DNA from: Actinomycetota bacterium
Lineage (GTDB): Bacteria > Actinomycetota > CADDZG01 > WHSQ01
Length of the DNA: 42,290 nt
Direction of reading: 5' to 3'
Assembly: GCA_030446465.1 (NCBI GenBank)
Contig: JAUJNI010000002.1
Span: 750,587-792,876, forward strand
The position numbers and the translations under genes are program-made. Positions 5,183 through 21,576 of this stretch are shown here, one piece after another. Below the pieces are notes generated by a model, which worked only from the letters and a program-made list of their open reading frames with translations, did not search any database and was not told the DNA's origin. The first letter of the stretch is position 1. Every line of letters starts with the position of its first letter.

Positions 5183-6571
5183 CTACGCGGTTGCCGGCTC
5201 GACTGCGCGCTTCCGCCAGTAGTCCTGGCCCTCTTCCGGCAAGGTGTAGATGGGGTCGTAGTACTCATGACCTCTTGTGAGGGCATCGGGGTCGTCGAAC
5301 TCGATGCCGGTGCGGTAGTTCTTGGTCCAGTAGGAGATCCCCTTGGTCCTGTCGTAGGCATCGACCTGGTGCACCCACCTCTTGCCGACAAAGGGCACGT
5401 CACACACGATGCGAGGTGTTGCGAACCCCGGCATGTAGCCCATGATCGAATGCTGCAACTGTTGGGCTTCGTGCACCGCCAGCCGCCAGTGTTCCGAGTT
5501 CGGGATCATGTCGCACATGTAGAAGTAGTACGGCATGATCTTCGCGTTATCGAGCAGTGCGAAGCAGAGGTCCAGAAGGGCATTCTGTGAGTCGTTTACG
5601 CCCCTCATGAGCACTCCCTGATTGCGCACGTCTCTGAAGCCCATGGCATGCAGCTTCTTGACGACTTTTGCAACCAGCGGAGTGATCGACTGAGCATGGT
5701 TGACGTGCACGTGCACCGCGAGGTCCACATCACGATCGACGGCTTTAGTGGCGAGGCTCTCGAGGCCACGCAGAACATCGTCCTGGAGGAAGTGCTGTGG
5801 CAGGCCCATCAGTCCCTTGGTCGCCAGTCTGATGTCCCTGATGTTGTCGATGTCCATGAGGGCCGACACGAACTCGACGAGGTGGTTGATGGGCAGGTTG
5901 GCGACGTCGCCTCCGGACACGACCACGTCCCTGACCGAAGGGGTCCGGCGAAGGTAATCGAGGATGGCGGCGTAGCGGTCCCTTTGCTTTGACTCGAAGC
6001 GGTACTTCAAGACCTGAGGAACGCTGTTGCCGACGAGGTCCATGCGGGTGCAATGCCCGCAGTACTGAGGGCAGGTGGACAGCAGCTCGGCGAGCACCTT
6101 GGTGGGATAGCGGTGCGTGAGCCCTTCGACCGCCCACATGTCGGCTTCGTGGAGGCTGTCGCGCTCGGCCAAGGGATGACTCGCCCACTCGGGGTGCCGG
6201 TCTCCGAACGCCGGGATCATGTAGCGCCTGATCGGATCGACCCAGAGGTCGTGCTCGTTCATCGTGTTCAGCATCTGTGGGGGCACCAGCATCGACATCG
6301 TCGCTCGCTCGGCCTGATCCCGCTTTATTGAGTCGACGAGGTCCTGCGGGATGAGGTCCTGATAGACCCGCAGAAGCTGGTCGAGTGTCTTTACGGTGTG
6401 CTGGCGCTGCCACTTGGCGCTGTTCCACTCGCCTCCCGTTACGTCTTTGTAGCCGGGGAGGCGCCGCCAATCGGGCTCGACGAAGGCACGCTCGGGCGGA
6501 TAGCGGTACGGCTGGGGGCTCGCGTGGGCCTTGGGAGTCCTATGCGCTATGGAGGTGGTGGGTGTCGTCAT
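5183..6571 (-). CDS. kamA: lysine 2,3-aminomutase family radical SAM enzyme (KamA)
   Basis: This radical-SAM, PLP enzyme converts L-lysine to L-beta-lysine, the first step of the pathway. From the ATG at 6571 it is 462 residues. The [4Fe-4S] motif CPQYCGHC is at residues 167-174 and is followed by TR, whose Arg matches the substrate-carboxylate Arg of the clostridial enzyme. Two Asp that bind the lysine side-chain amine are present, in YMCDM and in CDVPFVGK; glutamate mutases lack both, so lysine is the likely substrate. The PLP-Lys loop, normally Asp-Ala-Pro followed by four Gly and Lys, is altered and one residue shorter here. An upstream extension to 6649 is possible but crosses the divergent promoter region. 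It is first in the operon. Confidence 0.9.
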   Translation of the reverse strand: MTTPTTSIAHRTPKAHASPQPYRYPPERAFVEPDWRRLPGYKDVTGGEWNSAKWQRQHTVKTLDQLLRVYQDLIPQDLVDSIKRDQAERATMSMLVPPQMLNTMNEHDLWVDPIRRYMIPAFGDRHPEWASHPLAERDSLHEADMWAVEGLTHRYPTKVLAELLSTCPQYCGHCTRMDLVGNSVPQVLKYRFESKQRDRYAAILDYLRRTPSVRDVVVSGGDVANLPINHLVEFVSALMDIDNIRDIRLATKGLMGLPQHFLQDDVLRGLESLATKAVDRDVDLAVHVHVNHAQSITPLVAKVVKKLHAMGFRDVRNQGVLMRGVNDSQNALLDLCFALLDNAKIMPYYFYMCDMIPNSEHWRLAVHEAQQLQHSIMGYMPGFATPRIVCDVPFVGKRWVHQVDAYDRTKGISYWTKNYRTGIEFDDPDALTRGHEYYDPIYTLPEEGQDYWRKRAVEPATA

Positions 6572-6607
6572 GGACGTGCTCCGTTGGTTGCGTTTCTTCC
6601 CCCTGTA

Positions 6608-6622
6608 CCTAATGCTATTAGG
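6608..6622. promoter_or_regulatory. 15-bp palindrome, candidate Lrp operator
   Basis: CCTAAT-GCT-ATTAGG is a perfect 6-bp inverted repeat with a 3-base centre, sitting in the 83-bp divergent gap between kamA and the Lrp/AsnC gene. Size, AT-rich arms and spacing resemble the 15-bp Lrp-family consensus. The region is markedly more AT-rich than its surroundings. Binding by the neighbouring regulator is inferred. Confidence 0.6.
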
Positions 6623-6654
6623 CAGATCATCACTATACCGGAAGGACATTCGGA

Positions 6655-7104
6655 GTGGATGCCAAGAGTCGCATGATCGCGAGTCTCCTCGAGCAGGACG
6701 ATCGGCTCACTTACGCTGAGATCGGCGGCCGAGTGGGACTGGCCCCCTCGTCGGTCCACGACCGCATCAGAAAGCTCGAGCGTCAGGGCGTCGTCAAGGG
6801 GTACCGGGCCGAGATCGACCTCGAGGTCGCCGGCTTTCCGATCACCGCGTTCGTGAGCCTGGCCCTGCAGCCGGCGTCCCCCGCAGACGTCCCGGCCAAG
6901 ATCGCCGAGTTCCCACTGGTCGAGTCCTGCTACTCCGTGGCGGGCGACAACTCCTACGTGCTGTTGGTCAGGGCCCCCAGCACCCAGGCCCTGGAGGAGC
7001 TGCTCGACGCGCTCAGGGCCAAGCTCGAGGTCACGACTCGGTCGACCATCGTGCTATCGCGGCCTTTCGAACGAAGGCCGATGCTGTCCATGCCCGAGGG
7101 GTAA
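6655..7104 (+). CDS. Lrp/AsnC family transcriptional regulator
   Basis: This is a feast/famine DNA-binding regulator, probably the amino-acid-responsive controller of the divergent lysine operon. The GTG start at 6655 follows GGAAGG at 6641-6646 with good spacing; the product is 149 residues, normal for the family. Residues about 1-50 form the winged helix-turn-helix (DDRLTYAEIGGRVGLAPSSV followed by IRKLERQGVVKGY). The rest is the RAM ligand-binding domain, with CYSVAGDNSYVLLVRA, the family's turn before the dimer strand. The effector is not visible from sequence; lysine or a pathway intermediate is an inference from position. The palindrome at 6608-6622 is its likely operator. Confidence 0.9.
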   Translation: MDAKSRMIASLLEQDDRLTYAEIGGRVGLAPSSVHDRIRKLERQGVVKGYRAEIDLEVAGFPITAFVSLALQPASPADVPAKIAEFPLVESCYSVAGDNSYVLLVRAPSTQALEELLDALRAKLEVTTRSTIVLSRPFERRPMLSMPEG

Positions 7105-7138
7105 GGGCTGCGATCTGGGGGGCCCGGTACGCCGCCAC

Positions 7139-7170
7139 TATGGTGGTATGGCAAGATGGCTCTATGGCGA
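7139..7170 (+). repeat. four phased 8-bp repeats (ATGG every 8 bp) at the antitoxin start
   Basis: ATGG occurs at 7140, 7148, 7156 and 7164, exactly 8 bp apart; the units read TATGGTGG, TATGGCAA, GATGGCTC and TATGGCGA. The fourth unit holds the probable antitoxin start codon. Ribbon-helix-helix antitoxins often bind short, regularly spaced half-sites over their own promoter, so this is a candidate autoregulatory site. It also makes the choice of start codon (7140 or 7164) ambiguous. Confidence 0.4.
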
Positions 7171-7403
7171 AGGTGAAGACAACCCTCTCGATCGACGAGA
7201 ACTTGATGCGCCAGGTCAGGGTCCGGGCCGCCCGGTCGCATCGCAGTCAATCGGATGTTCTGGAAGCAGCCCTAAGGGAAGGGTTGGGTGTCGTTGAGCG
7301 GATCAGGTCGAAAGCTCGGCTGGATGAGGAGGAAGCGCTGGAGCTCGCCTCCATGGTCGTCCACGAGGTTCGCGCGGAAAGCGGCCGCAAGAGAAAGCCT
7401 TAG
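7164..7403 (+). CDS. ribbon-helix-helix (VapB-like) antitoxin
   Basis: This is the likely antitoxin of a VapBC-type module: a small DNA-binding protein that represses its own operon and neutralises the PIN-domain toxin encoded next. The 79 residues begin MAKVKTTLSIDENLMRQVRV, a typical beta-strand plus helix RHH start, followed by SHRSQSDVLEAALREGL. The C-terminal half is charged and helical, suited to binding toxin. I chose the ATG at 7164 because family members begin with this strand; an in-frame ATG at 7140 would add eight residues. The TAG stop at 7401-7403 overlaps the first codon of the toxin frame. Confidence 0.75.
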   Translation: MAKVKTTLSIDENLMRQVRVRAARSHRSQSDVLEAALREGLGVVERIRSKARLDEEEALELASMVVHEVRAESGRKRKP

Positions 7404-7821
7404 CTATCCAGATCGTCATTGACGCCGATTGCCTTATCGCAGGCGCGCTGACGCCCTCGGGAGCCACCTCTAAATTGCTCGATCTTTGGTTGGAGGGCGA
7501 GTTCGAACTCATAGTTTGCCCTCAACTCATTGATGAAGTCATAAAGGCCTTATTGCGTATAGGGGCAAGTACCACATCACCCCGGAAGAAGTGGAAGGCT
7601 TCGCCGCTCGATTGGCGGAAGAAGGCTTGCTCTTCGACAACCCCGAGAATCCGGCTCGAGTGGTCCCCGACGATCCCAAGGATGATTACCTGATAGCCCT
7701 GGCTTTGCAGACGAAGGCCGATCTCCTTGTTAGCCGAGACCGCCATTTCGAAAAGGCCGATGCAGGGAACCTCCCGATTGTGACCCCAGGTATCATGGTC
7801 CGCCGTCTCCGGGATGTCTAA
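7400..7821 (+). CDS. PIN-domain (VapC-like) toxin, frameshifted, non-standard start
   Basis: This is a PIN-fold ribonuclease toxin paired with the upstream antitoxin. The N-terminal frame reads IVIDADCLIAGAL, giving the first acidic metal ligand, and LIDEVIKAL gives the conserved Glu. The C-terminal frame, one base off, holds PDDPKDDYLIALAL and LLVSRDRHF with the remaining acidic residues. The shift falls near 7555-7565, next to a GGGG run, and one added base restores a normal PIN protein of about 140 residues. No ATG, GTG or TTG lies where the protein should begin; the expected Met position is the TTA at 7400-7402, overlapping the antitoxin TAG. The gene may be inactive, or the frameshift may be a sequencing error. 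Confidence 0.7.
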
Positions 7822-7890
7822 CTGGGCCCCTGCAACGCCCTTCCCGGCATGGCGTCACCTTGAAGCCTGGGAGAGCGAGCTCACGGAAAC

Positions 7891-8281: not shown

Positions 8282-8713
8282 CTAGCGGCGGATGTGCGCT
8301 GCGATGTGAGAGAGGAGGCGCTCGGCTTGTTCACTGCACCGCGAGGGGACATGGACGTCCTCTTCTGGCGCGCCACCCACGTAGCGCTCGGAAAGAAGCT
8401 GTTCCCTCGACAAGCGAGCGATCAACGCAAGCTTTGTTTCCACTCTTGACACCTCCGGAGGCAGGCGCATGGCCAAGACGTCCAAGGAATCAACCTTCGC
8501 CGCTGGATAGCGCGCGAGAATCCGTCCGACCTCGGGATCCGGGTTGTGGAGATGGAGCCAGGCGCGGGTCGCGGGATGCATCCCCGTAGCGCCCACATAG
8601 ATGACTTTGCGATCTCCACTCGCCTGTAGCCATGCGTAGACCCACGATCCGCCCTCCAAGATTTCGCCAGCACGGACGCGCAGCAGGAGGACGTCTTCCT
8701 CACCGGTAGCCAT
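8282..8713 (-). CDS. GIY-YIG-like domain protein
   Basis: This 143-residue protein contains WVYAWLQAS, then VIYVGATGMHPATRAWLHLH. That resembles the GIY-YIG nuclease core: two short strands carrying the GIY and YIG elements, then an Arg and a His. A later SRVETKLALIARL could supply the metal-binding Glu. The match is by pattern only; the first element is WVY rather than GIY. Such domains occur in homing endonucleases, UvrC and many small proteins of unknown role. It lies 4 bases after a membrane-protein gene, which itself follows an acyl-CoA dehydrogenase, so the three are probably one transcript. The cellular role is unknown. Confidence 0.5.
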   Translation of the reverse strand: MATGEEDVLLLRVRAGEILEGGSWVYAWLQASGDRKVIYVGATGMHPATRAWLHLHNPDPEVGRILARYPAAKVDSLDVLAMRLPPEVSRVETKLALIARLSREQLLSERYVGGAPEEDVHVPSRCSEQAERLLSHIAAHIRR

Positions 8714-8717
8714 TGGC

Positions 8718-9245
8718 TTAGGTGAGGTCAGACTTGCTCAGGCGCTCGAGAGCGGCGCGTATTCGGAACCAGTAGGCGACTCCTGCGAGGAGTGCTACTG
8801 GGAAGAACAGAAGTTGCCGCCACAGGTCTCCTGTGATGGTGAACACGACGCTGCCCATCAATATCGGCTGGGCTATTAAGGTTGCGGCGAGGGCCGCCAG
8901 CGTCTTGCCTACTTCCTCGAGAGAGCGCGGCAGTGCCTGGGGACCGAGGAGGCTCGATACCTGAAGCCGCCGAGGCACCAGCCTCTCGGCACTGCTTTCT
9001 GGGAGGACCGGAGGCGACTCCTTGATGCTCTCGAACCGCGCTCGGACCCGGCTCGGGTCGAAGGCGTAGAAGCCGAAGAAGAGGAGCGACAGGCAAGAGA
9101 AGGCCAGCGCGCCGTAAGTGACCGCGTCCGGGCCGTTGCCCGAGTCGAAGCTGCCCTGCAAGAAGAAGGCAAAGAGGCCCATCACCACCCCTGCCGCCGC
9201 GACGATCGTGAAGTACTTCTTTCGGTAGGCAAGCGCCTGCTGCAC
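8718..9245 (-). CDS. hypothetical integral membrane protein
   Basis: This 175-residue protein has two hydrophobic hairpins. Segments at about residues 13-31 and 44-61 form one pair, and about 120-137 and 143-161 the other. A charged cytosolic-looking loop between them contains many Arg and Pro residues. The N-terminus is basic and no cleavable signal is evident. I do not recognise a family. The GTG start at 9245 is one base after the acyl-CoA dehydrogenase stop, and the next gene starts 4 bases after its own stop, so it sits in a tight operon. The function cannot be inferred. Confidence 0.65.
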   Translation of the reverse strand: MQQALAYRKKYFTIVAAAGVVMGLFAFFLQGSFDSGNGPDAVTYGALAFSCLSLLFFGFYAFDPSRVRARFESIKESPPVLPESSAERLVPRRLQVSSLLGPQALPRSLEEVGKTLAALAATLIAQPILMGSVVFTITGDLWRQLLFFPVALLAGVAYWFRIRAALERLSKSDLT

Positions 9246-14217: not shown

Positions 14218-15603
14218 AGGCCGAGAGCTCCCGGGTTCATGATCCCGTGGGGATCGACTGCGCGCTTGATCGCATGGAGCAGCTCCGAGAAGCCGCCGAG
14301 CTCCCGTTCCAGCCACTTCGCTTTCAAACGACCTATCCCGTGATGATGGCTGATGGTCCCGCCGGCCCCCAGGCACGTTTCCATTCCGGTGTCCCACCAG
14401 AGCCCGAGCTGGTCGCGCGCTGATCATCGGAGGAGCACGCAGAGGCCATCGTGAAATAGAGACAGGCACCGTCGGTGTAGACGTGCGAGAGGTGGCAGCC
14501 CACGAGGTCGGCGTGACGACCGAGCGCGTCTTTCATCAAGTGGTAGAGCTCACGCAGCACGGTCCAGGTTCCCGCCACCTCCATGGTGTCGACCAAGGCG
14601 TGGGGGCCGAGCAGGCCCTCCCCCGCCATCACCTTCCTGAACTCGGCCACGGCGTCGTTGCGATGCTCCCACCAGTGGGCCGCGAAGCGTTCGTCGGTCA
14701 CGGTTGCTCCCGTCATCTCGACTGCGCGATCGGCTCGCTCCTCGGCGCGCGGCCCGTCGAAGGCGACCAACAGCAACGGTCCACCGGGCGGATCCTTAAA
14801 GTGCCTGAGCAAGATCATCGTGTCCTCACGGTCGTAGAGGCGAACCAGCGTCGGACGCAACTCCGACTGAGCAAGCGACCTGCACGCGGCCACTCCCTCG
14901 GACATGCTCGCGAACAACAGGGCCCTGCTGACCCTTTCGGTCGGGACGGGCGCCAGTCGCAGCGTCGCTTCGGTGACGATGCCGAGGGTGCCCTCCGAGC
15001 CGATCATCAGGGAGGCGACATCAGGGCCCGTCGCCCGTCGAGGCGCGGTTTTCGACCTCACGACACGCCCACCGGGCAGGACCGCTTCGAGACCCGCCAC
15101 GAGGTCCTCTATGCCTCCGTAACGGGCGGACAGCTGCCCGCAGGCCCTGGTTGCGATCCAGCCTCCAACGGTCGAGATCGACATCGACTGGGGCTCGTGT
15201 CCGAGGGTTAACCCCTCGGCCTGCAGGCGCCGCTCCAAGTGGGGGCCGAGAACCCCGGCCTGGACCGTGGCGAGCCGGCTCTTGGTGTCGACGTCGATGA
15301 TGGCGTCGAGACCTCGAAGGTCGACGACCACGTGGCCGTCAGGCTCTATGCCACGGCAGACTCCGGAGCCGCCTCCGAACGGGACCACCGGCGTGCGCGT
15401 GTCGTGGGCCCACGCGAGCAGTTGGCTCACTTGGTGGACAGAGCTAGGCCCGACTACGCAGCTCGAGCTGCCGTGGCACGGCCTTGCCTGAGGTCGAGCA
15501 AGGCGCCGGCCGACCAGTCATGGCTGTGGTCGAGCGCTTCTTGTGGGCCGGTAAGGGTCGCGCCGTCGCCGAGAAGCTCGGCAAGCTCCGCCGGCGGGTT
15601 CAC
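14214..15603 (-). CDS. FAD-linked oxidase, alkyl-DHAP synthase-like (two frameshifts in this sequence)
   Basis: This is a VAO-type flavoprotein resembling alkyldihydroxyacetone-phosphate synthase. Three frames are needed. The N-terminus (GTG 15603) reads [10 protein letters not shown] and [16 protein letters not shown]. The body contains [16 protein letters not shown] and [16 protein letters not shown], the FAD-binding core. The C-terminus, from about 14413, has [12 protein letters not shown] and [11 protein letters not shown] (the family His cluster) and ends IMNPGALGL. One base seems missing at about 15468-15476 and another at about 14413-14420. Each join gives ordinary family sequence, so indel errors are likely, though a pseudogene is possible. 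It is GTGA-coupled to the thiolase upstream and the lipid kinase downstream. Confidence 0.82.
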
Positions 15604-18122: not shown

Positions 18123-19886
18123 TTACGGGTCAGCCCTGCGGCGGGACGGCATCACGCGAGCTGGCTCGCCCTTGGCCTTGGGGAAATGCGGGGGCCAAGG
18201 CGCATCGCCGAGGCCCTCACGCTCGTCGTTCTCGGCGAGCTCCAGCAGTGATTCGATGCTCGCCGTCGAGCGCTCGATTCCCTCCCACGGGTCGCCGGTC
18301 GACTGGAAGCGTTGGGGCACGGTGTCGATGCGAAAGGCGGTCGGATCGAGGTCTTCAATTTCCTCCCATGCCAGCGCGCACGACACTCGAGCATCCGCTA
18401 CCGGCCTTACCGAATAGACGCCGGCAATGGTGCGATCGCGTGCGTTCTGGTTGTAGTCGACGAACACTCCTCGTCGTTGCTCCTTCCACCATGCGGTCGT
18501 CGCAATGCCGGCCATGCGCCGCTCGACCTCGCGCGCCAGCGCTAGAGCAGCCTTCCTTACCTCGGTGAACGACCATCTCGGCTCTATGCGCACGTAGATG
18601 TGCATGCCGCGCTTGCCCGAGGTCTTCGGGTAACCAGTGAGCCCGTGCTCGATGAGCACGTCTTTCACCACAGGCGCTACGCGCACCACGTCCGAGTAAG
18701 GGATGTCTGGAGTCGGATCGAGGTCGACACGCAGCTCATCGGGGTGGTCGACATCGGCGCGGCTGACAGGCCACGGATTGAGGTCGATGCAACCGAGGTT
18801 GACCGCCCAGACGATGCTCGCCGTGTCTGCGATGACCAGCATCTCGGCGGCGCGACCGCTTGGGAAGGTGATCGTCGTGGTCTCGAGCCAGTCCGGCCGT
18901 CCCTTGTCGCCGACTCGCTTCTGGTAAAAAGCGTCCTCCGGCTTGTCGACGCCGTTGGGCCAGCGATAGAGCGTCGTCGGGCGGTCCCTGGAGCCCCGCA
19001 GCACCCCGGGGGCGACCGCCAGGTAGTAGCGCACGAGGTCGCCGGTCGACTGGAAGCGTTGGGGCACGGTGTCGATGCGAAAGGCGGTGGGATCGAGGTC
19101 TTCGATTTCCTCCCATGCCAGCGCGCACGACACTCGAGCATCTGGTACCGGCCTAACCGAATAGACGCCGGCGATGGTGCGATCGCGTGCGTTCTGGTTG
19201 TAGTCGACGAACACTCCCCTTCTTTGCTCCTTCCACCATGCCGTCGTGGCGATGCCGGCCATGCGCCGCTCGACCTCGCGCGCCAGCGCAAGAGCGGCCC
19301 TCCTTACCTCGGTGAACGACCATCTCGGCTCTATGCGCACGTAGATGTGCATGCCGCGCTTGCCCGAGGTCTTCGGGTAACCGGTAAGCCCGTGCTCGAC
19401 GAGCACGTCTTTCACCACGGGGGCTACCCGCACGACGTCTGAGTAAGGGATGTCAGGAGTCGGATCGAGGTCGACGCGCAGCTCATCGGGGTGGTCGACG
19501 TCGTTGCGGCTGACGGGCCACGGGTTGAGGTCGATGCACCCGAGGTTCACAGCCCAGATGATGCTCGCCGTGTCGGCGATCACCAGCATCTCGGCGGACC
19601 GACCGCTTGGGAAGGTGATCGTCGCGGTCTCGAGCCAGTCCGGGCGCCCTTTGTCGCCGACTCGCTTCTGATAGAAGGCGTCCTCCGGCTTGTCGACGCC
19701 GTTGGGCCAGCGATAGAGCGTCGTGGGCCGGTCCCTGGAGCCCCGCAGCACCCCGGGGGCGACCGCCAGGTAGTAGCGCACGAGATCCATCTTGGTGACG
19801 CCGACCTGCGGAAAGAAGACCTTCTCGGGGTTGCTCACCGCTACTTCGCGGCCGTCTACTTCTAGGATTTCTTTGGGTGTGGGCAC
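18123..19886 (-). CDS. LigD-type primase-polymerase with tandem-duplicated catalytic domain
   Basis: This is an archaeo-eukaryotic primase (AEP) family polymerase of the LigD PolDom type, used in non-homologous end joining to fill gaps with dNTPs or rNTPs. Its usual length is about 330-340 residues; here it is 587 because residues 35-283 are repeated in frame as 284-532. Each copy carries the full catalytic set: VDLDPTPD (Asp139/Asp141 and Asp388/Asp390), SGKRGMHIYV, and VDYNQNARDRTIAG with the third Asp. The C-terminal 55 residues (from PWEGIERS) and N-terminal 34 are single-copy. The two copies differ at only 7 of 249 residues. A stand-alone ATP-dependent ligase lies about 650 bp upstream in the same direction; no ku is in the window. 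Confidence 0.9.
   Translation of the reverse strand: MPTPKEILEVDGREVAVSNPEKVFFPQVGVTKMDLVRYYLAVAPGVLRGSRDRPTTLYRWPNGVDKPEDAFYQKRVGDKGRPDWLETATITFPSGRSAEMLVIADTASIIWAVNLGCIDLNPWPVSRNDVDHPDELRVDLDPTPDIPYSDVVRVAPVVKDVLVEHGLTGYPKTSGKRGMHIYVRIEPRWSFTEVRRAALALAREVERRMAGIATTAWWKEQRRGVFVDYNQNARDRTIAGVYSVRPVPDARVSCALAWEEIEDLDPTAFRIDTVPQRFQSTGDLVRYYLAVAPGVLRGSRDRPTTLYRWPNGVDKPEDAFYQKRVGDKGRPDWLETTTITFPSGRAAEMLVIADTASIVWAVNLGCIDLNPWPVSRADVDHPDELRVDLDPTPDIPYSDVVRVAPVVKDVLIEHGLTGYPKTSGKRGMHIYVRIEPRWSFTEVRKAALALAREVERRMAGIATTAWWKEQRRGVFVDYNQNARDRTIAGVYSVRPVADARVSCALAWEEIEDLDPTAFRIDTVPQRFQSTGDPWEGIERSTASIESLLELAENDEREGLGDAPWPPHFPKAKGEPARVMPSRRRADP
18291..19784. repeat. 747-bp direct tandem repeat (two copies) within the polymerase gene
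   Basis: Bases 18291-19037 and 19038-19784 are direct repeats of exactly 747 bp (249 codons). I count 47 mismatches by eye, about 94% identity, with no indels. Only 7 change the protein; the rest are silent, mostly at third positions. The junction joins codons for Gly-Asp to Leu-Val-Arg with only a few bases of microhomology. Either an in-frame duplication has been kept under selection, or two strain alleles were joined in assembly. Confidence 0.9.
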
Positions 19887-19936
19887 GCGCCCAAGTATCG
19901 CAACAACCGAGCATGGGTCTTGGTTCTCCTGCAGGG

Positions 19937-20407
19937 TTATGGACGAGGGGCGCTGCGTGCGAAGTAGGCAGCGTTGGTGGTAAGGGCGTACAAGACGAAG
20001 CCGTTGAGACCAAGTCCAAGGAGCTGGGAAGGGTCGCCGCCAAGAACGGCAAACGCCGCCAAGAAAAAGCCGATCGCCGCCAACACAATCCCCAGAATCC
20101 TGCCCGCGCCCTTCCTCAGTAGGACGGTGACCCCCGCGACGGCCTGTAGGGCTGCCACCACGAACGAGAAGATGGCCAGCCCGGTGCCGAAGTCGCCGGT
20201 TGGCAAGCCGGTAACCCCGGCGAGAGCGGCGATCCCGAACAAGAGGTTGATGGCCGCCAGCACGAACAGCACAACGGCGGCGGCAGTTACCTGGGGCGGC
20301 CGTTGTGGGGCGGGAGCACCGGCCCAGGGCTGCTGCTCGAAAGGTGGGGGTGGTGGCGGCGGTGGTTGGTAAGACGGGTGGTTCCTCGGGTCGTCTGCGT
20401 CGCTCAC
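19937..20407 (-). CDS. proline-rich membrane protein, hypothetical
   Basis: The 156-residue protein starts with a hydrophilic tail of about 40 residues containing an eight-proline run and Gln/Pro repeats. Four hydrophobic segments follow, at about 41-63, 73-95, 103-123 and 128-145. Such Pro-rich-tail plus membrane-domain proteins are common in actinobacteria and mostly uncharacterised. It lies between the ligase and polymerase genes on the same strand, but with gaps of about 50 bases on the downstream side and 130 on the upstream side, so a functional link with repair is doubtful. Confidence 0.65.
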   Translation of the reverse strand: MSDADDPRNHPSYQPPPPPPPPFEQQPWAGAPAPQRPPQVTAAAVVLFVLAAINLLFGIAALAGVTGLPTGDFGTGLAIFSFVVAALQAVAGVTVLLRKGAGRILGIVLAAIGFFLAAFAVLGGDPSQLLGLGLNGFVLYALTTNAAYFARSAPRP

Positions 20408-20538
20408 TGGCCCCCCTCAGCTTGGCGCTCGTAGTGCCCTAGGACTCGGGCGGGTGACGAGTCTTATCCTTCGCCTTCCTCTGGAGACTTCCTCTGTGAA
20501 CTCGATCTCCTGCTTCGCGGACCGCCGAGGTTAAGTGA

Positions 20539-21576
20539 TCAGTGGGGGCGCTGGCGTGGTGGGAGTTGCTCGAAGGTGCACTCGAGTGGGGGCTTGTCGG
20601 GTCTCCAGCGCAGCCAGCGGGCTCCGTGACGAAAGCGATCCCCCTGCATGTAGTCGAACGCCACCTCACAGACGAGCGAGGGCTCGAGTGAGATCCAGGA
20701 GACGTCCTGGCCCCGGTTCCACCGACTCGGGCCCCCGGGTGTTCTGCCCGCCCCGAAGCTCTCCCCTCCCTCGAGCGGGCCGAGTATGTCGAGCAGCTCC
20801 TTTCTCTGCCGGGCGGGGAAGGCGGAGGTGAAGCCAACGTAGTGAAGGGTGCCCGACGAGTTGTAGAGGCCGAGCAGCAGGGAACCAACGCCGTCCCCCG
20901 ACTTGGCCAGCCGGTAGCCGCCGACCACGCAGTCGATGGTGCGCTCGTGCTTGATCTTGACCATCACGCGCTTTCCTGCGACGTAACGCTCATCGAGACG
21001 CTTGCCCACGACACCGTCAAGGCCCACGTCTTCCAGCTCTCGGAACCACTCCAGCGCGGTGTCGGCGTCGTTCGTCTGTGGCGTCGTGACGAGCGAGGGT
21101 CCCTGGGACGACGCGATGCCGGCCGCGTCGGCAGGCGGTCCCGAGATGTCCAACAGCCGGGCCCTGCGGTCGTGAAGAGGCTGCTCCCTTAGGTCTTGGT
21201 GTCGCTCCGCGAGTACGTCGAACGCCACGAAGCTCGCAGGGGTCTCGGTCGCAAGCTTTGCAATGCGCGACGCTGCCGGATGAATGCGCTGAAGCAACGA
21301 GTCGAAGGCGAGGCCGTCGGCGCGAGCCAGGATGATCTCTCCGTCGATCACGCAGGGCCGATCGAGGGCCTCCGCGAGAACGGTGGCAACTTCGGGAAAG
21401 TAGCGTTGCAGCACTCGTCCGTCGCGGCTCTCGATGTGGACGTCGTCGCCGTCGCAGAACGCCATGGCCCTGAAGCCGTCCCACTTGGGTTCGTAGACCC
21501 AATCGCTTCCCCTAGGGAGCTCCTTCTCGAGCCTCGCGAGCATGGGCTCTACCGGGGGGCCGAAGGGCAGGTTCAT
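20539..21576 (-). CDS. ATP-dependent DNA ligase (LigC/LigD ligase-domain type)
   Basis: This ligase seals nicks using ATP. In 345 residues it carries the nucleotidyltransferase motif I KWDGFRA with the adenylated Lys at residue 31, then VIDGEII (motif III), FVAFDVL, LDGVVGKRLDERY (motif IV) and MVKIKHERTIDCVVGGYR (motif V). The C-terminal OB-fold domain has VGFTSAFP and SLVCEVAFDYMQGDRFRH. The length is that of the stand-alone actinobacterial LigC-type enzymes, without the polymerase and nuclease domains of full LigD. It begins 17 bases after the zinc-ribbon gene, on the same strand. Together with the polymerase at 18123-19886 it suggests a split end-joining system. Confidence 0.92.
   Translation of the reverse strand: MNLPFGPPVEPMLARLEKELPRGSDWVYEPKWDGFRAMAFCDGDDVHIESRDGRVLQRYFPEVATVLAEALDRPCVIDGEIILARADGLAFDSLLQRIHPAASRIAKLATETPASFVAFDVLAERHQDLREQPLHDRRARLLDISGPPADAAGIASSQGPSLVTTPQTNDADTALEWFRELEDVGLDGVVGKRLDERYVAGKRVMVKIKHERTIDCVVGGYRLAKSGDGVGSLLLGLYNSSGTLHYVGFTSAFPARQRKELLDILGPLEGGESFGAGRTPGGPSRWNRGQDVSWISLEPSLVCEVAFDYMQGDRFRHGARWLRWRPDKPPLECTFEQLPPRQRPH

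Follow-up and report, generated by a model that had tools for sequence, protein, structure and literature searches.

In excision repair, short gaps are filled with ribonucleotides by Prim-PolC polymerases and then sealed by LigC (PMC5663958). In the Mycobacterium smegmatis (Msm) Prim-PolC, the 5'-phosphate is held by N20, K23, Y25, and K35, together with P65; the wedge consists of I73 and Y74; and three loops have been described, namely, Loop 1 (S95 and R97), Loop 2 (W219, W220, K221, and R224), and Loop 3 (P320, N321, K324, and R331) (PMC7442782). Truncation of Loop 3 in the M. smegmatis enzyme left the filling of 1-nucleotide (nt) gaps intact and abolished the filling of 3-nt gaps (PMC7442782).

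The window analyzed here, a stretch of 42,290 nucleotides from an Actinomycetota genome (2.76 Mb in 6 sequences, 95.7% complete), contains, at 18123-19886, one minus-strand open reading frame that has a GTG start, encodes 587 amino acids, and holds two polymerase cores, as indicated by the open reading frame list, Pfam/NCBIfam matches, and a PDB search. The cores correspond to two adjacent direct repeats, 18291-19037 and 19038-19784, each 747 bp long and free of indels relative to the other, a repeat far beyond chance. The copies differ by 47 mismatches (93.7% identity; 24 transitions and 23 transversions), which affect 44 codons, fall 8/2/37 on the three codon positions, and change 7 of 249 residues; from copy 1 to copy 2, these changes are A88T, S97A, I110V, N128A, V163I, R196K, and P248A. 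The tandem in-frame duplication reported in the initial annotation was thus confirmed, with all of its counts exact. With the gene on the minus strand, 19038-19784 encodes the N-terminal copy (core copy 1, residues 35 to 283) and 18291-19037 encodes the C-terminal copy (core copy 2, residues 284 to 532), both delimited by repeat comparison, Pfam, and residue mapping. Pfam domain PF21686 (LigD_Prim-Pol) was matched twice, at residues 31 to 284 and about 282 to 534, and the limits of the duplicated unit (residues 35 to 283) lie within 4 residues of those of the first match. The core-core junction falls between 19037 and 19038 (19034-19041, minus strand; codons ..TCG ACC GGC GAC / CTC GTG CGC..), where homology amounts to 1 bp, or to GAYC with one mismatch. 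No further copy of the Prim-PolC gene was found elsewhere in the genome, whose two other PolDom genes are distant relatives of the two-core gene.

By sequence match and modeled fold, the two-core protein is a Prim-PolC, the polymerase that accompanies LigC and fills short gaps in base-excision repair. In the PDB search, the closest solved structure by sequence was M. smegmatis Prim-PolC (6sa0; E value, 2e-171), followed outside Prim-PolC by 5dmu (5e-40); the E values of LigD polymerase domains were about 1e-32 to 1e-36. A model built with AlphaFold2 for residues 302 to 587 (pLDDT, 90), which leaves out the first 18 residues of core 2, matched 6sa0 with a TM score of 0.94 at 1.4 Å and 51% identity, compared with TM scores of 0.74 to 0.79 against LigD polymerase domains and the Methanocella NHEJ polymerase; the best fold-based PDB match was likewise Msm Prim-PolC (6sa0/5op0). 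The C-terminal extension with helix alpha-8 and Loop 3 is present in one copy, on head 2 only (residues 533 to 587; 18126-18290, minus strand; located by residue mapping according to PMC5663958 and PMC7442782). A Prim-PolC has a single core, as do 110 related loci, and this protein has two; it was treated as a Prim-PolC variant because all other sequence features of the family were found. The protein is predicted to fill short 5'-phosphorylated gaps with rNTPs.

The initial annotation had called the duplicated domain LigD type, a name that was rejected in view of the sequence match, the fold, Loop 3, and the LigC-type neighboring ligase. The gene is neither fused to a LigD ligase nor located beside LigD ligase and Ku genes, and the Loop 3 extension, which is absent from LigD domains, lies at the C terminus. 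The bridging of two DNA ends that had been suggested would not be the natural role of such a protein, since Prim-PolC is an excision-repair gap filler (PMC5663958).

The elements that recognize the substrate are divided between the two heads. Residue mapping placed the catalytic motifs, the wedge, Loop 1, and Loop 2 in both cores. The two VDLDP aspartates are D139 and D141 in core 1 and D388 and D390 in core 2. The N-terminal segment, present in one copy (residues 1 to 34; 19785-19886, minus strand; mapped onto the Msm enzyme, with the pocket as in PMC7442782), carries the 5'-phosphate pocket residues N19, K22, F24, and K32 (Msm N20, K23, Y25, and K35) in front of core 1 only, and the Loop 3 residues P566, H567, K570, and R577 (Msm P320, N321, K324, and R331) lie behind core 2 only. 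Core copy 1 accordingly has no Loop 3 directly behind it, core copy 2 has no pocket segment directly in front of it, and both heads are incomplete as Prim-PolCs. P20 and K32 do not vary among 96 relatives, which have K or R in place of K22, so that core 2 is without residues that every relative keeps. The earlier description of both copies as catalytically intact therefore holds for the catalytic motifs and fails for substrate recognition, where each copy is missing one element; the two heads that it envisaged are, with the pocket on head 1 only and Loop 3 on head 2 only, unequal. An AlphaFold2 model of the whole fusion showed the two heads as folded with good confidence (mean pLDDT, roughly 82 in head 1 and 94 in head 2) and had values below 50 for the linker at residues 272 to 276; the homologues behind this model aligned to only one core, and it is silent on which head holds the terminal segments.

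A LigC gene, encoding an ATP-dependent DNA ligase (20539-21576, minus strand; NCBIfam PRK08224 equivalog, 447 bits against a cutoff of 296), is located 0.65 kb from the two-core gene, and the gene for a small DUF7144-like protein lies between them (19937-20407, minus strand; match below the Pfam cutoff). LigC adjoins single-copy Prim-PolC in many relatives. In the closest relatives, the two genes are convergent and 24 to 34 bp apart, whereas in the window (18123-21576) they share a strand and are separated by the DUF7144-like gene, an order indicating that the locus was rearranged in the lineage of the window. Elsewhere in the genome, Ku genes were found at C6:173290 and C2:49185, and a separate PolDom/ligase pair, which presumably serves end joining, was found at C6:426904-429577. 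A further PolDom gene (G000 C4:968573-969490) has an open frame of at least 619 amino acids, and the search match to it ran over one TAG. Within the window, the C-terminal domain match of a FAD-linked oxidase (14336-15430, minus strand) ends at profile position 179 of 248, and the next open reading frame, which is read in a different frame, overlaps it, so that the sequence may contain a frameshift near 14336-14470.

None of the 110 related loci encodes two cores, and the relatives' Prim-PolC proteins, mostly 333 to 370 amino acids long, are single-domain proteins, as the initial annotation had stated. The single-copy proteins of the same bacterial family and of near relatives (for example, L034, L035, and L007) have one core and 336 to 343 amino acids and are 68 to 69% identical to the single-core equivalent of the window protein. 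A junction-spanning query gave no junction-crossing match in 24 genomes of the class. In the phylum, the query matched 141 of 396 genomes, the own genome included, and among the matches listed, the only one crossing the junction was that of the window itself; these matches were ordered by E value, so that a close tandem would head the list and a distant one could be missed. The PolDom of roughly 590 residues that the initial annotation had proposed as a search target in related genomes was thus absent from the 110 loci, the 24 class genomes, and the phylum matches listed, and a limited literature search found no two-core LigD-type polymerase. The two-core form is known from one genome of metagenome type, and the comparison covered one species of the genus. 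The locus is best described as a core duplication, probably real and lineage specific, of a known repair polymerase, in which the two recognition elements are unexpectedly split between the heads.

The reading favored here, with a probability of about 0.58, is a genuine in-frame tandem duplication of the Prim-PolC catalytic core together with the following origin and mode of working. The duplication would have arisen when residue 283 was joined illegitimately to residue 35, at a site with hardly any homology, leaving a single 5'-phosphate pocket on head 1 and a single Loop 3 on head 2. The divergence of 6% between the copies would then stem more probably from exchange with a diverged strain allele than from long divergence in place. 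The two-core protein would still perform Prim-PolC work beside LigC.

That the duplication is physically real is, judging from the sequence and its context, quite likely. The principal alternative, already named in the initial annotation, is an assembly artifact, in which each genome has one core and the assembler strung two strain alleles together, perhaps aided by chimeric reads. The genome appears to be of metagenome type; in a 400-kb sample of it, 5 of 10 gaps of 100 N were flanked by exact 55-bp overlaps (L136:8646-8855, L137:11105-11314 and 14914-15123, L140:15695-15904, and L145:5891-6100), and the megabase-sized sequences resemble scaffolds built from k=55 de Bruijn contigs with the overlaps left unmerged, a structure to be kept in mind when other findings from this genome are read. 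An identity of 94% with mainly silent differences resembles two strain alleles, two stretches identical between the copies, of 82 and 56 bp, reach or exceed k, and the two-core form occurs in no relative examined. Parallel alleles, however, give a bubble in the assembly graph and not a series, and a path from residue 283 back to residue 35 requires reads or k-mers that contain the junction; because the homology there (1 bp, or an imperfect 4 bp) is too short for a k=55 assembler, the junction is unlikely to be assembler made. Moreover, the reading frame is kept, the repeat ends at a domain boundary, the window contains no N gaps, the 442 kb of genome sequence scanned, made up of the window and another 400 kb, yielded no second adjacent tandem repeat of gene size, and the genome holds no second Prim-PolC allele elsewhere. 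This alternative is thereby weakened and is considered unlikely. Repeats of other kinds were seen in the same genome: a tandem array with units of about 69 bp that are 83 to 93% alike (L134:18225-18817; G000 C6, about 748225-748817), spaced direct repeats of 462 bp at 90% (L130:6195-6653 and 8459-8919), and a roughly 2.5-kb block duplicated at 75 to 84% (L129:2725-5190 and 5237-7856).

The age of the duplication bears on whether a two-headed enzyme has been maintained. Between the copies, dN was 0.0144 and dS was 0.25 (NG86), and their ratio, which the initial annotation had named as a check, was ~0.06. The repeat is free of mismatches over its first 56 and last 52 bp; when the differing codons were shuffled, both end runs were as long in 0.035% of trials (permutation P = 0.00035), a result that is suggestive only, as the test was picked after the data had been seen. 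This pattern suggests a recent duplication, initially identical, whose interior may have been partly replaced by an allele of this gene that had built up differences under selection in another strain. Mismatch-free ends and an overwritten interior mean that the low dN/dS is no proof of long-kept selection on a two-headed enzyme; it suggests that both sequences are functional, which need not mean that one protein has two functional heads. For the purifying selection on two heads postulated earlier, the low ratio is not sufficient evidence by itself, and the identical ends, which fit an overwritten recent duplicate, make long selection of this kind less likely. At most of the seven changed sites, copy 2 bears the rarer residue, with no clear ancestral state, and the nearest relatives, at an identity of only about 70%, do not allow silent sites to be polarized. 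An old duplication that diverged in place under purifying selection on both heads, yielding an established two-headed polymerase, would account for the dN/dS ratio, for the 37 of 47 changes at third positions, and for the retention of all motifs in both copies, but the identical repeat ends, the allele-like pattern of divergence, and the absence of the form from every relative examined make it distinctly improbable. Long, near-identical direct repeats usually recombine away, so that long persistence is unlikely without selection, and this instability also speaks against an old origin.

Under the favored duplication reading, head 1 would dock on the 5'-phosphate and fill 1-nt gaps without Loop 3, like the Loop 3-truncated Msm enzyme. 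Head 2 would bear Loop 3, the upstream-duplex clamp required for gaps of more than 1 nt, and would find its substrate without a 5'-phosphate pocket of its own or borrow that of head 1. Two unequal heads are the simplest prediction because the pocket and Loop 3 are split between the cores and because of the behavior of the Msm enzyme after Loop 3 truncation; the anatomy would also accommodate a composite enzyme, with both recognition parts serving one core. A stable two-headed Prim-PolC in which both heads are active, the 5'-phosphate-anchored one on 1-nt gaps and the Loop 3-clamped one on longer gaps, so that one polypeptide handles both or passes a gap between heads, has a small chance of being correct. 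A single functional enzyme, in which looping out or domain swapping packs the N-terminal segment and Loop 3 on the same core and leaves the other core as a passenger, would suit the presence of exactly one N-terminal segment and one C-terminal extension for two cores and the alignment of single-core homologues to the N terminus, one core, and the C terminus of the fusion, but is very improbable given that the second core has no motif decay and is modeled as folded.

If real, the locus is a natural experiment that separates the 5'-phosphate pocket from Loop 3, which a single-core Prim-PolC always carries together; it would also place two active sites on a single repair-polymerase chain and illustrate a route by which a core can be duplicated in frame with its limits at a domain boundary. 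As an assembly error, it would call for caution in the mining of domain architectures in metagenome-derived genomes.

Compared with the described systems, the window protein is most similar to Msm Prim-PolC (MSMEG_6301; LigC-Pol/PolD1; 5OP0, 6SA0, and 6SA1), with which it shares the family, the fold of head 2, the 5'-phosphate pocket, the wedge, Loops 1 to 3, and a nearby LigC gene. The Msm protein has one core and about 350 amino acids, whereas the window protein has two cores and 587 amino acids; unlike in Msm Prim-PolC, the pocket and Loop 3 sit on different cores, and pocket residue Y25 and the Loop 3 pin N321 are replaced by F and H, respectively. The LigD polymerase domain (Prim-PolD; 2IRU, 4MKY, and 2FAO), which is without Loop 3 and works with Ku in end joining, shares the AEP catalytic fold and motifs and has about 29% identity to modeled head 2, with TM scores of 0.74 to 0.78. 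Head 1 alone, with a 5'-phosphate pocket and no Loop 3, resembles this LigD domain.
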